Positions 25,329 through 28,834 of a DNA stretch of 64,000 nucleotides are shown here, in pieces (the stretch's first letter is position 1; the number at the start of each line of letters is the position of its first letter). The DNA comes from an uncultured Acidimicrobiales bacterium (GTDB lineage Bacteria; Actinomycetota; Acidimicrobiia; Acidimicrobiales; SZUA-35): positions 1 through 64,000 of the forward strand of contig CALAJQ010000004.1 of the NCBI GenBank assembly GCA_937922785.1, read 5' to 3'. The position numbers were made by a program, and so were the translations under genes. The notes under the pieces were generated by a model. The model was not told the origin of the DNA and ran no database searches. It saw only the letters and a program-made list of their open reading frames with translations.

Positions 25329-25796
25329 GTGGAAACCGGAACCCTAAGCCAACAAAATCATCGACACCATTGGTTTCGTTGTGTGATTGTGCCCATCCTC
25401 GCTGCACTAGCGGTTTCTGCCTGTGGCAACACCGACGATGGAATGGGAGAACCTTCGGGTCCGGTGTCCTACCAGGTCACCTTCATTGCCGACGGCCAAG
25501 ACGGCATCGGGCCCACACGAGCGGTGATTGGACTGGACGAAGAGTTTGCCGTATTGGACGGAAACTCTGGCTGTCACAGAATTTTGGGATCATTCACGCT
25601 TGACGACGCCTCAGGCAAGGCGGGATTCACCGTTCCCGGCCGCTCAACTAACAACTGTGACCCAGATGAAGAACTGGTTGAAGAACTTCTGTTGGCGGCG
25701 TTTGAGGAGGTCGTCAGCTTTCGTCGGTTTGATTCTCGTCTTGAGTTCTTTGGTCCGAGCCAGAATCGCCTTCTGGCGTTCGACCCGATCTCTTAA
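25329..25796 (+). CDS. META-domain lipoprotein
   Basis: The 155-residue protein has a signal peptide with lipobox LAVSAC (Cys about residue 32), so it is likely anchored at the outer face of the membrane. The rest has the HslJ/META pattern: GNSGCHRILGSFTLDD, then the second Cys in NNCDPDEELVEELLLAAFEE, then a terminal strand RLLAFDP. META-domain proteins are linked to envelope stress and motility; function here is unknown. The GTG start follows GGGGGC. Its last 83 bp overlap the convergent RNA methylase gene. Confidence 0.75.
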   Translation: METGTLSQQNHRHHWFRCVIVPILAALAVSACGNTDDGMGEPSGPVSYQVTFIADGQDGIGPTRAVIGLDEEFAVLDGNSGCHRILGSFTLDDASGKAGFTVPGRSTNNCDPDEELVEELLLAAFEEVVSFRRFDSRLEFFGPSQNRLLAFDPIS

Positions 25797-26880
25797 ACAC
25801 CTTCACCGGAATCCCGCCGTGACCGAATGACCAAACCGGCTTGAGACGGCGATCAATATTTTTCACAAGACGGGCGTCAGAAGCAACAACCGCTAGGTCC
25901 CAACCCGGACAGCGCTCTCGGGCAACGGATCCGAACTTTCGGTAAAGCGCAGTTAGGTCACCGTCACCCACACGTTTGCCGTAGGGAGTGTTTGTTGCGA
26001 TCAGCCCAGGGCCGTCGTGGCCCTTCAAGTGGGAGACGACCATAGGTGATAGCGACACGGCCTCGGCCACGCCGGCCCGTTGTGCGTTCGAAAGAGCAGA
26101 GGAGATAACCGCAGCGTCGCGGTCGCTCCCCTCGATGGTGACCGTGGCTTCTCTTAGCGAGGATCCAATCGATCCCTTTACTGAAGCCCACGTGCCAGGC
26201 TGGAAATCTGGCCACTGTTGAAATGCAAACTCACGATCGCCGCCCGGCGGCATGCCTTTGGCAATGAGAGCCGCTTCGATAGGAATCGTGCCGCTTCCAC
26301 AAAACGGGTCGAGCAGGTCGGTCTGGCCATTCCAGCCAGAGCCAAGCAGCATCGCTGCCGCCATCGTGGGGCGAAGTGGTGCAACACCAATCTCTTGACG
26401 CCAGGGCCGTCGCTGCAAGCCTTCACCTGTCGAATCGGCGCTGACTGTCACAATGTCTTGGACAACCCGAACCGTGAAACGCTGCACTGGCTGGGCGGGC
26501 TCCCCCTCACGTGCGGGCATTCCGGGAGGCCCGACAACCAAATGCAGCCGCTGCGCGATTGCGTCCGTGTGGTAGAGCTTCGATGCTTTAGAGGTAACGC
26601 GGAACTCCGGTGCGTAGCCCTCGGGAACCCACTGCTTCCAATCAACCTCGCGGGCCCTCTCTTCAAGATGAGCAAAGTCAGTTGCCCGGAACTTGGCCAT
26701 CCGGACCACCACCCGAGTAGCGGTTCTAAGCCATACGTTGGCAGCGTAAAGCTCTCGATGATTTGCCTTAAATCCAACAACACCCGCGGCGCCTGCTTTA
26801 GGCTTCAGCTTCAACGCCTTCAGCTCTTCGGTCAGAATTTCTTCTAGCCCTGGGGTACATACTGCGGCTGCTTCAAACAC
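25714..26880 (-). CDS. THUMP-domain RNA guanine-N2 methyltransferase-like protein
   Basis: The 388-residue protein has an N-terminal THUMP/ferredoxin-like RNA-binding part (about 1-150) and a C-terminal Rossmann methyltransferase. The SAM-binding loop is DLLDPFCGSGTIPIEAAL and the catalytic loop IATNTPYGKRVG. The order matches RlmL-N/Trm14-type enzymes that make m2G in rRNA or tRNA. The catalytic tetrapeptide is usually NPPY; here it is NTPY, a change at the second position. GTG start. The 3' end overlaps the convergent META lipoprotein gene by 83 bp. Confidence 0.85.
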   Translation of the reverse strand: MFEAAAVCTPGLEEILTEELKALKLKPKAGAAGVVGFKANHRELYAANVWLRTATRVVVRMAKFRATDFAHLEERAREVDWKQWVPEGYAPEFRVTSKASKLYHTDAIAQRLHLVVGPPGMPAREGEPAQPVQRFTVRVVQDIVTVSADSTGEGLQRRPWRQEIGVAPLRPTMAAAMLLGSGWNGQTDLLDPFCGSGTIPIEAALIAKGMPPGGDREFAFQQWPDFQPGTWASVKGSIGSSLREATVTIEGSDRDAAVISSALSNAQRAGVAEAVSLSPMVVSHLKGHDGPGLIATNTPYGKRVGDGDLTALYRKFGSVARERCPGWDLAVVASDARLVKNIDRRLKPVWSFGHGGIPVKVFKRSGRTPEGDSGSDQRTQDENQTDES

Positions 26881-26898: not shown

Positions 26899-26985
26899 CT
26901 ATCCACAGGTTTATGCCAGTTGCTGTGGACAGCGTGAGGATTTCGCTGAAAAACCTGAGGACAAGCCACATTTAGCAGTGGATAG
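26899..26985. promoter_or_regulatory. cluster of four DnaA-box-like 9-mers
   Basis: CTATCCACA (26899-26907), TGTGGACAG (26924-26932, reverse), TGAGGACAA (26956-26964, reverse) and AGTGGATAG (26977-26985, reverse) each differ by one or two bases from TTATCCACA or TTGTCCACA. They fall within 87 bp just upstream of the methylase gene. No dnaA, dnaN or gyr gene is near, so a chromosomal origin is doubtful. Confidence 0.3.
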
Positions 26986-27023
26986 CTTGGGGATTGCGAG
27001 ATTGCGCTTGCAGGCGGCTAATC

Positions 27024-27448
27024 GTGCGGGCAAGATGCTCTCAGCCGGTTGGAAGAACCGAACAGCGAAGTCACAAACGCAAAAGCGAAGGAACGGGCGA
27101 CCGATCCAGAACTGGAGCCGGTGGCGGAGAAGTTCGCAGACAACAACAGGTCAGGTAAGAGAAATACCAATGGTCCACAAACTTGATCGGGAGTGGGCCC
27201 CATCAGTCACCACGGGGCTTCGGTCCTAGCTGGCCGATGGTAGAGCGACAACTAATGGCACTAGCCGGCGGGACTCAGATCGTGAACGGGGCAACCCAGA
27301 CGCAGAACGTGTAACGACGGATAGCTCCAGAAGTAGAAACTCAAAAAGCACACTGCCCAACAGACGCAAGTCTGAAGGGCAGTGGAAACATTCGATGAGA
27401 ACAGTACTGCTGCTCAATTCGCATGTGGTGGATCTCGAAACCGCCTCT
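27024..27448 (+). ncRNA. candidate large structured RNA, possibly a 5' group II intron remnant
   Basis: No convincing reading frame exists here, but stable RNA folding is evident on the plus strand. There is a GGGC-UUCG-GUCC hairpin (27215-27226), GGG-GCAA-CCC (27288-27297) and a two-part hairpin: outer CACTGCCC/GGGCAGTG (27351-27358, 27377-27384), symmetric AA/AA internal loop, inner CAGAC-GCAA-GTCTG (27361-27374). UUCG and GNRA tetraloops occur only in this strand sense. The block begins GTGCG (27024), matching the GUGYG 5' end of group II introns, and the purine-rich stretch CGAACAGCGAAG resembles intron domain I. No reverse transcriptase and no domain V/VI are visible, so if it is an intron it is a 5' fragment. 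Another structured RNA class remains possible. Confidence 0.45.
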
Positions 27449-27505
27449 AGACACCCCCGGAAGCCAAGGCGCAAGCCAAAGCAACCGAGGGTGTCTTACT
27501 TTTTT
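27449..27505 (+). terminator. strong intrinsic terminator closing the candidate RNA
   Basis: AGACACCCcCGG (27449-27460) pairs with CCGaGGGTGTCT (27485-27496) with one mismatch, followed by TAC and six T residues (27500-27505). The loop holds a further GGC-GCAA-GCC hairpin (27468-27477). This is the clearest Rho-independent terminator in the window and implies a plus-strand transcript ending here, although no coding gene precedes it. Confidence 0.75.
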
Positions 27506-27508
27506 GGC

Positions 27509-27800
27509 CGTCTTTGCCGTCTTTGCCGTTCCCCGGGCACGGAGCCCGCCCTGCTCCGGCCTTGCGGTCGGGACGCGCCTTGCCCCGGCCTTGCGGTCGG
27601 GACGCGCCTTGCCCTCTTTGCCGTTCCCCGGGCACGGAGCCCGCCCTGCTCCGGCCTGCGGTCGGGACGCGCCTTGCCCCGGCCTTGCGGTCGGGACGCG
27701 CCCTGCTCTCTTTGCCGTTCCCCGGGGCACGGAGCCCGCCTTCCTCCGGCCTTGCGGTCGGGACGCGGCTTGCTATCGATTCTGCGGTCGGGACGCGCCC
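27509..27800. repeat. GC-rich minisatellite with higher-order repeat
   Basis: The core CTTGCGGTCGGGACGCGCC occurs six times (starting near 27561, 27590, 27656, 27684, 27751 and 27781, some with one or two changes). Spacing alternates between about 29 and about 66 bp, giving a 95-bp higher-order unit present about three times. Each large unit also carries CGGGC-ACGGA-GCCCG, a small hairpin, and CTTTGCCGTTCCCC. All six reading frames are open across it, which reflects composition, not coding. It sits between the terminator and the quinone reductase gene. Confidence 0.92.
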
Positions 27801-27865
27801 GGCTCACGGCTGCTTCAGTTTTCTTGTTTTTATGGCTTGGGGGTTGTTGGTAATAGGCTCGACTT

Positions 27866-28834
27866 ATGCGTGCGATTGAGTTTTCTTCCAATGGTGGCCC
27901 TGAGGTATTGGAACTTGTTGAGGTTCCCGAACCTACTGCGGGGCCCGGCCAAGCGGTGGTTCACATTGACAGCGCCGGGCTGAACTTCATTGACACCTAT
28001 CACCGGTCCGGCCTCTATGACGTCACTCTGCCGATGCGTCCCGGCGTTGAGGGCTCGGGCATTGTTGCCGCCATCGGTGATGACGTTACCGAAGTGGCGG
28101 TAGGCGATCGGGTGGCTTGGGCCGGCCCCGGCGGCTCTTACGCCGAACAAGCTGCGGTATCGGCAGACCAGCTGGTGCGCGTGCCCGATGCGGTCAGTCT
28201 CGATGCAGCGGCTGCAGTCATGCTTCAGGGAATGACAGCTCACTACCTCGCTCTAGACACCCACCCGCTAGCACCCGGCGACAAGTGCCTCATCCATGCT
28301 GGCGCCGGCGGTGTTGGATTGTTGTTGACCCAAATCGCCAAGCTTCAGGGCGCCGAGGTGTTTACCACCGTTGGCTCAGCAGCGAAGGTTGAACTGTCAC
28401 GAGCCGCCGGTTCTGACCACGTGATCAACTACAACGAACAGAACTTTGCCGACGTCGTTGCCGAGGTTGGTGGCCCAAACTCACTCGCTGTGGTCTATGA
28501 CGGAGTTGGGGCGTCGGTCTTCGATGACAGCCTCTCCCTACTGAGAAAACGCGGTGTCATGGCCACATTCGGCAATGCGTCCGGTCCGGTCCCACCCGTT
28601 AGTCCCCTAGCTCTTTCAGCCGGAGGTTCATTGTTTCTTACAAGGCCGACCTTGTTTGACTACATCGCCACTCGTCCGGAGCTGCTCAAGCGAGCGGCCG
28701 ACCTCTTTGGGTGGATGGCCACCGACAAGCTCGATGTAACAATTTCTCACCGCATTCCACTAGCCGAAGCAGCCGAGGCGCACCAGATGCTTGAGGGTCG
28801 TTTGACCCATGGGAAAGTCCTTCTACAACCATAA
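27866..28834 (+). CDS. NADPH:quinone reductase, zinc-free MDR family
   Basis: This is a 322-residue QorA-type enzyme. The N-terminus MRAIEFSSNGGPEVLELVEV and SAGLNFIDTYHRSGLY replace the zinc-site residues of alcohol dehydrogenases. The cofactor loop is LIHAGAGGVGLLLTQIAK. Family members reduce quinones with NADPH by one electron or act as enal/enone reductases. ATG start. The gene begins about 65 bp after the minisatellite, so its promoter must lie in or next to that GC-rich repeat. It is followed by a hydrolase-like gene in the same direction. Confidence 0.92.
   Translation: MRAIEFSSNGGPEVLELVEVPEPTAGPGQAVVHIDSAGLNFIDTYHRSGLYDVTLPMRPGVEGSGIVAAIGDDVTEVAVGDRVAWAGPGGSYAEQAAVSADQLVRVPDAVSLDAAAAVMLQGMTAHYLALDTHPLAPGDKCLIHAGAGGVGLLLTQIAKLQGAEVFTTVGSAAKVELSRAAGSDHVINYNEQNFADVVAEVGGPNSLAVVYDGVGASVFDDSLSLLRKRGVMATFGNASGPVPPVSPLALSAGGSLFLTRPTLFDYIATRPELLKRAADLFGWMATDKLDVTISHRIPLAEAAEAHQMLEGRLTHGKVLLQP

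Follow-up and report, generated by a model that had tools for sequence, protein, structure and literature searches.

In the 64,000-nucleotide stretch of an uncultured Acidimicrobiales genome analyzed here (the window), the region 27024-27505 lies between an RlmL-like methyltransferase gene on the minus strand (25714-26880) and a zinc-binding dehydrogenase gene on the plus strand (27866-28834), and the sequence between the two protein genes is unannotated. An earlier note on this DNA had read the region as a structured RNA with tetraloop hairpins, a symmetric AA/AA internal loop and a terminator of its own. These elements are present (Table 1) and the homologues, 79 distinct sequences, covary. 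The AA/AA loop of helix 1 is formed by nucleotides 27359-27360 and 27375-27376. In the terminator a 7-bp outer stem (GACACCC at 27450-27456 with GGGTGTC at 27489-27495) encloses 32 nt, the word GGCGCAAGCC lies within the hairpin at 27468-27477 and the T6 run occupies 27500-27505. This terminator was absent from the output of a simple terminator scan because the loop limit of the scan was 8, against the 32 nt found inside the outer stem.

Table 1. Features of the RNA locus and its upstream region (positions in the window)
Feature	Position	Strand	Basis
DnaA-box-like site TGTGGATAG, at -109 relative to the -35 element, in none of the shared registers	26899-26907	-	sequence
DnaA-box-like site TGTGGACAG, at -84, same register in homologues	26924-26932	+	homologue alignment
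DnaA-box-like site TGAGGACAA, at -52, same register in homologues	26956-26964	+	homologue alignment
Degenerate DnaA-box-like site AGTGGATAG, at -31 (-32 in most homologues), with at least two mismatches	26977-26985	+	homologue alignment
Half-site TTGGGGATT, equivalent to CTGTGGATT/CTGGGGATT of homologues	26987-26995	+	homologue alignment
-35 element TTGCAG, spacer 17	27008-27013	+	aligned to homologues (mostly TTGACC)
-10 element CAAGAT	27031-27036	+	aligned to homologues (often CANAGT)
Structured non-coding RNA, about 463 nt	27043-27505	+	ends deduced from the -10 element (5') and the terminator (3')
UUCG hairpin	27214-27227	+	seen in sequence
GGGGCAACCC	27288-27297	+	tetraloop hairpin element
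Conserved 3' domain (type I)	27343-27434	+	part covered by covariance models R1/R2
Helix 1 with AA/AA internal loop and GCAA loop	27351-27384	+	CACTGCCC-AA-CAGAC-GCAA-GTCTG-AA-GGGCAGTG
Helices 2 and 3	27388-27426	+	covariation in homologue alignment
Conserved GGTGGATC	27427-27434	+	homologue comparison
Intrinsic terminator (stem and T6)	27450-27505	+	5 of 9 predicted pairs with two-sided changes, n = 7 sequences

The predicted fold of 27024-27510 beat all 100 of its shuffles (z -4.05), and the opposite strand of the same stretch also beat its own (z -3.82). When tetraloop hairpins were counted with stems of at least 4 pairs, only two passed, a number equalled by 22 of 1000 dinucleotide shuffles, and 3 of the 552 tiles of the window reached three such hairpins. 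Counting tetraloops is by itself weak evidence, and the covariation of the homologues is strong evidence. The RNA strand has an excess of A over T (AT skew 0.31-0.43 in windows of 200 bases from 26950 to 27499), as expected from the unpaired purines of structured RNAs. Directly 3' of the terminator we found diverged tandem repeats (27510-27805) with units of about 18, 29 and 95 nt (TGCGGTCGGGACGCGCC...), and four homologous loci (L041, L042, L058 and L082) also have small tandem repeats at this place. Such repeats follow the terminator at 11 of 71 loci and occur in 23 of 311 control stretches, an enrichment that is at most weak.

DNA similarity searches against 40 relatives of the same family found the 3' part of the RNA in four of them below an E value of 1e-5 (best 2.6e-14); two weaker matches proved real, with compensatory changes visible. 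A covariance model of 92 positions built from seven sequences (R1) scored at least 30 bits in 22 of 298 genomes of the order, and 30 genomes matched at E up to 0.01, the remaining eight weakly. A second model built from 23 sequences (R2) scored at least 46 bits in 25 of 395 genomes of the class, all of them within the same order, the next match being at 29.6 bits. Both the order-wide and the class-wide searches were run with stricter filters, by which weak matches are lost. In total, 30 genomes of the order sample carry the type I domain, 22 detected by R1 and eight more by R2. Of 39 genomes from the family of the window, 31 have the domain with a score of at least 50 bits, 29 of them as one copy and the other 2 as two copies; the genome of the window has one copy. 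The eight family genomes without the domain include all three of one genus (1.2-3.2 Mb assemblies).

A pattern scan of named genomes returned 69 stretches, 53 of which were confirmed by R2 at 44.7 bits or more. The titles of the confirmed ones are Acidimicrobiales, Acidimicrobiia, Acidimicrobiaceae, Ilumatobacter, Ilumatobacteraceae, Microthrix or unspecific actinobacterial names, and they include the named strain Ilumatobacter nonamiensis YM16-303 (L151, 55.4 bits). The 16 unconfirmed stretches, among them Streptomyces, Pseudonocardia, Arthrobacter, proteobacteria, a member of the Nitriliruptoraceae (L175) and two titled Acidimicrobiales (L131 and L189), were not counted: 15 had no R2 match at the place of the pattern under the E limit and one from Gemmatimonadetes (L153) reached only 32.2 bits. 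A phage origin of the RNA is not supported: two viral stretches match the pattern and R2 confirms neither there, the single R2 match in them having 16.7 bits. Judged from these matches, the RNA family spans several families of the order Acidimicrobiales.

Covariation was evaluated in an alignment of 93 chosen loci, 79 of them distinct in sequence, which joined 40 rows of a first alignment (A4), 48 of 53 rows of another (A6) and five of six new loci from the family search; the loci left out are on the same contigs as included ones. From the 53 rows of A4 we used the 40 that scored at least 46.1 bits and dropped 13 at or below 29.6 bits, and from the 61 rows of A6 we used 53 and dropped eight at or below 32.2 bits, seven of which were the opposite strand of a used row. 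The earlier note had proposed a search for covarying homologues, and in those recovered here 21 of the 26 pairs show two-sided compensatory changes, with 88.1% of the cells paired. The covariation score was 0.454, versus 0.161 in shuffled alignments and 0.027-0.073 when the partners were slid. Two-sided changes affect 8 of the 12 pairs of helix 1 (94.4% of cells paired), all eight of helix 2 (90.6%) and five of the six of helix 3, where only 70.9% of the cells are paired. This alignment was fitted to a covariance model and is therefore biased towards the structure of the model. A structure-blind alignment of the 79 sequences recovers helix 1 (one of its pairs is UA in 52 and CG in 26 of them) and does not recover helices 2 and 3; helix 2 was recovered blind in a MAFFT alignment of the first seven sequences. 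Alignment across families fails in the middle of the RNA, and 18 type I RNAs aligned over their full length share only helix 1 and the terminator. On these alignments, the covarying 3' domain is conserved as RNA structure.

Concerning the 5' end, the homologues have a TTGACC-N17-CANAGT-like promoter upstream of the RNA; the -35 element of the window itself is degenerate (TTGCAG). Counted from the -35 element, the 3' domain lies at a distance of 237-262 in 14 of the 39 loci; in the others, L040 apart, the distance ranges from 189 to 631. Since the alignment with homologues places GTGCG at 27024 in the promoter spacer, the RNA would begin near 27043, a start suggested by the -10 element, and the promoter appears to be of sigma-70 type and the RNA's own. 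Of the extent 27024-27505 first proposed for the RNA, the 3' end thus stands, as the T6 run of the terminator reaches 27505, and the 5' end moves to about 27043.

As read from the aligned sequences, the promoter of most homologues has upstream of it a row of DnaA-box-like sites in helical phase, almost all with the same orientation. In the 110 bp 5' of the -35 element of 38 aligned loci, a profile that omits L041 (too little upstream sequence) and L040 (no array found by the search), the common boxes are GGTGGACAA, GGTGGATAA and TGGGGACAA, and they are followed at about -21 by a half-site CTGTGGATT or CTGGGGATT. Of the loci examined, 39 have a candidate promoter, and 34 of these contain one or more boxes that differ from TGTGGAYAA at no more than one position, where the means in shuffles were 0.01-0.09; the five loci without such a box include L040, where no array at all was found. 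Of 75 box-like sites, 73 share one orientation. Five registers at about -96, -84, -73, -52 and -32, with a width of four positions each, account for 69 of the 73. The remaining four are near -107 and -118, where the helical phase is kept. The commonest words are GGTGGACAA (14 of the 75) and GGTGGATAA (10), while the exact actinobacterial-type word TGTGGACAA accounts for three. A spacing rule, written after the loci had been seen, held for 63 of 76 loci and for none of their 76 reverse complements or 76 shuffles. It did not hold for 12 other loci and the window, where the cause is the TTGCAG of its -35 element; its boxes at -84, -52 and -31 are kept.

The motif recognized by DnaA is TTATCCACA/TTGTCCACA. 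In the dnaA regions of seven genomes we found TGTGGACAA in all seven, GGTGGACAA in two and TGGGGATAA in two; because the box words recur in these regions, they were read as DnaA boxes, and we infer from the array that DnaA may control the promoter. The available text of a review of DnaA as a transcription factor (PMC8203912) does not contain the words sRNA, non-coding or noncoding. The replication origin was rejected as an identity for the locus, as dnaA is on another contig in the genome of the window and in G210, and the locus lies at 0.28-0.45 of the genome from dnaA (sizes rounded) in the five genomes where both are on one contig.

Searches with Rfam 15 at the gathering level gave no match in the whole 64-kb window nor in 20 homologous loci. 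At E values up to 10 the window stretch matched only IRES_IGF2 (14.4 bits) and 5.8S (12.3 bits), which is chance level. Under permissive settings one homologous locus (L091) gave five matches below cut-off, including F6 at 18.8 bits (cut-off 46) on the terminator hairpin, and another (L072) gave three microRNA models, all far under their cut-offs. The 6S model RF00013 was not among the matches up to E 10 for these three stretches. RNase P RNA (RF00010) and tmRNA (RF00023) were discarded as identities, both being found elsewhere in the genome of the window (contigs C18 and C9). No 6S RNA scored above cut-off in 11 genomes, the one match recorded having 20.3 bits versus 46.4; since among 14 control genomes only 4 gave a 6S match at the cut-off of the model, the lack of matches here is weak evidence. 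We conclude from these comparisons that the RNA family is missing from Rfam 15 and probably has not been recognized before. The alternative of an unrecognized large RNA, which the earlier note had kept in second place, agrees with a conserved and covarying family that has a promoter and a terminator and no Rfam match at the gathering level.

In other families of the order the same promoter precedes an RNA with another 3' end. A pattern made of the last box and the -35 element had 50 matches in 47 of the 298 genomes of the order, versus 13 for the reversed pattern; some of them are type I, others among those inspected precede an RNA of about 220-280 nt or more, and a few look like chance. The terminator hairpin of this second form differs (CCCCGAGRAG...GGYTACTCGGGG), and a covariance model of it (R3) matched 111 of the 298 genomes at E up to 1e-3, with weak arrays in some of those inspected. 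In a phylum sample R3 matched 14 of 296 genomes at 1e-4. Eight of these are outside the class and were not counted as members, some of the hairpins looking unrelated on inspection. Only two of the 30 type I genomes (G188 and G301) also have an R3 match, and in each it falls on the terminator that immediately follows the type I domain. Given this nearly exclusive occurrence, the two forms look like alternative 3' ends, presumably of one RNA gene. In one family (f35) the 5' part of the second form is predicted to fold into a long hairpin that contains a large internal loop, with two-sided changes in only 10 of the 65 pairs predicted for the whole RNA. A GAGAAG/GGCTA-like word occurs in both forms, as GAGAAGGCTAAC in the 3' domain of L053 and as GAGAAG...GGCTAC in the terminator of L093, and might be a shared binding site.

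The neighbours of the RNA vary, even inside the family of the window. None of the clusters of reading frames around 53 loci is shared by every locus, and the widest ones, upstream and divergent, hold 27 loci (frames were taken from stop to stop on both strands, so that overlapping frames were counted twice). At this widespread upstream place L161 has a gene with HMGL and LeuA domains, citramalate-synthase-like, and other loci are flanked by genes for acyl-CoA dehydrogenase, enoyl-CoA hydratase, histidine kinase, short-chain dehydrogenase or alpha/beta hydrolase. The changing neighbours favour a trans-acting stand-alone gene and disfavour a leader.

We consider it reasonably probable that the locus is a stand-alone non-coding RNA gene of Acidimicrobiales, with its own promoter behind a DnaA-box-like array and its own terminator, set by DnaA and acting in trans. 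The RNA would be transcribed from its sigma-70-type promoter and end at its intrinsic terminator. DnaA, or another protein that prefers the same sites, would bind the array in phase beside RNA polymerase and either raise or lower transcription, so that synthesis of the RNA would be set by the state of replication initiation, and the RNA would then act in trans as a structured, protein-binding molecule.

Other readings of the locus were weighed against this one. A cis-acting leader or riboswitch of the zinc-binding dehydrogenase gene, which lies downstream on the same strand, is very improbable: the terminator and 360 bp intervene, and other loci are flanked by other genes. We give practically no credence to the remnant of a group II intron, which the earlier note had suggested from GTGCG at 27024 and a purine-rich sequence, with the 3' part of the intron lost. 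GTGCG (27024-27028) is not at the start of the RNA, where the GUGYG of such introns belongs, and lies in the spacer between the -35 (27008) and -10 (27031) elements; its letters are not kept, as the aligned homologues differ at that place. The conserved part is here the 3' end itself, with the terminator directly behind, the genome has a single copy and the homologues end in the same domain and terminator. The covariance-model search against group II introns that had been proposed, carried out with the whole Rfam library on both strands, reported no group II model at E up to 10.

It is a doubtful but serious possibility that the RNA stands alone and the array binds another regulator with a DnaA-like site, unlinked to replication: most of the boxes, which are DnaA-like by sequence, deviate from TGTGGAYAA, the commonest being GGTGGACAA and GGTGGATAA; however, words of the same kind (GGTGGACAA and TGGGGATAA among them) occur around dnaA in these genomes. 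Somewhat less likely still, the locus could be mainly DNA, a site for DnaA titration or recycling comparable to datA or DARS, where transcription would only modulate DnaA binding and the RNA would have little function. An array of DnaA-like boxes distant from dnaA, the poor conservation of the middle of the RNA and the effect that transcription through datA has on this site in E. coli, according to the available text of PMC10950094, would fit such a site. Yet a DNA function leaves unexplained that compensatory changes keep the 3' domain across many families, and the array is in fixed register to the -35 element. The datA and DARS loci of E. coli are likewise non-coding clusters of DnaA sites, as far as the available text describes them (PMC10950094, PMC4585315); unlike them, the array here abuts the promoter of a conserved RNA.

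Returning to the stand-alone RNA gene, the known RNAs closest to it are Ms1, 6S and CcnA. Ms1 of Mycobacterium and Streptomyces is likewise a stand-alone actinobacterial RNA with its own promoter and terminator and weak sequence conservation; it is about 230-304 nt long and binds the RNA polymerase core (available portions of PMC9130861 and PMC4191392). However, Ms1 folds into a long hairpin with a central bubble and is encoded next to a HAD-IB hydrolase gene, whereas the RNA described here has local 3' modules and a DnaA-like array. A single long hairpin with a conserved central bubble, a trait of 6S and Ms1, was not seen in the predicted fold of 27024-27510. A scan of 18 reading frames close to the RNA, in the window and at eight other loci, found no HAD domain; five of the 18 frames had no Pfam match. 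The 6S RNA is likewise a widespread structured RNA, but its model has 187 positions versus about 463 nt here and the conserved domain differs. By description, not by sequence, the RNA may also be likened to CcnA of Caulobacter, of another phylum, a non-coding RNA that the available text ties to the cell cycle (PMC8959179). As to the partner of the RNA, our best single guess, a tentative one, is RNA polymerase, in a role like that of 6S or Ms1; it is attractive because no 6S scored above cut-off in the 11 genomes and no Acidimicrobiia are listed in Table 4 of the Ms1 paper, in the portion available (PMC9130861). More speculatively, and rather improbably, an order-wide housekeeping RNA with two 3'-end forms might fill the vacant 6S/Ms1 niche and, with its synthesis set by DnaA, signal the replication-initiation state to RNA polymerase or to some other global machine.

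Acidimicrobiia were not named in the RNA-discovery literature returned by our search. They abound in the sea, in lakes and soils and in activated sludge. A conserved RNA with a covarying domain, located after a phased array of DnaA-box-like sites, would offer a way to study how replication and gene expression are coupled in these bacteria. With I. nonamiensis YM16-303 as a carrier, the RNA is directly testable in a named strain.

Some units occur in tandem. Locus L102 (G303) has two complete type II units one after the other, each with boxes, promoter, RNA and terminator, the promoters 410 bp and the terminator hairpins 355 bp apart, and another genome (G162) has two R3 places 490 bp apart with box-like words before each. 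Hairpin-rich RNA-like units were also seen in other orders of the class, at L221 (G311), L222 (G316) and L226 (G321), the first two as tandem pairs; upstream of their promoters CGCGAAAA words take the place of the DnaA-like boxes, and the terminator is CCCCGAGAGGG...CCCTCGGGG-like. Outside the class, a CCCCGAGGAG...GGCCTACTCGGGG hairpin is located about 200 nt behind a TTGACC promoter-like site at L225 (G602) and L227 (G616), where the RNA-like stretch looks different from the family, and the R3 matches L217 (G762) and L219 (G674), from one family of the phylum (f124), are near-identical hairpins of another kind. A purine-rich RNA-like stretch outside the class (L218, G617, about 1350-1560) ends in CCCCAAGAAG...GGTTACTTGGGG and a T run, and is possibly a distant member of the second form.
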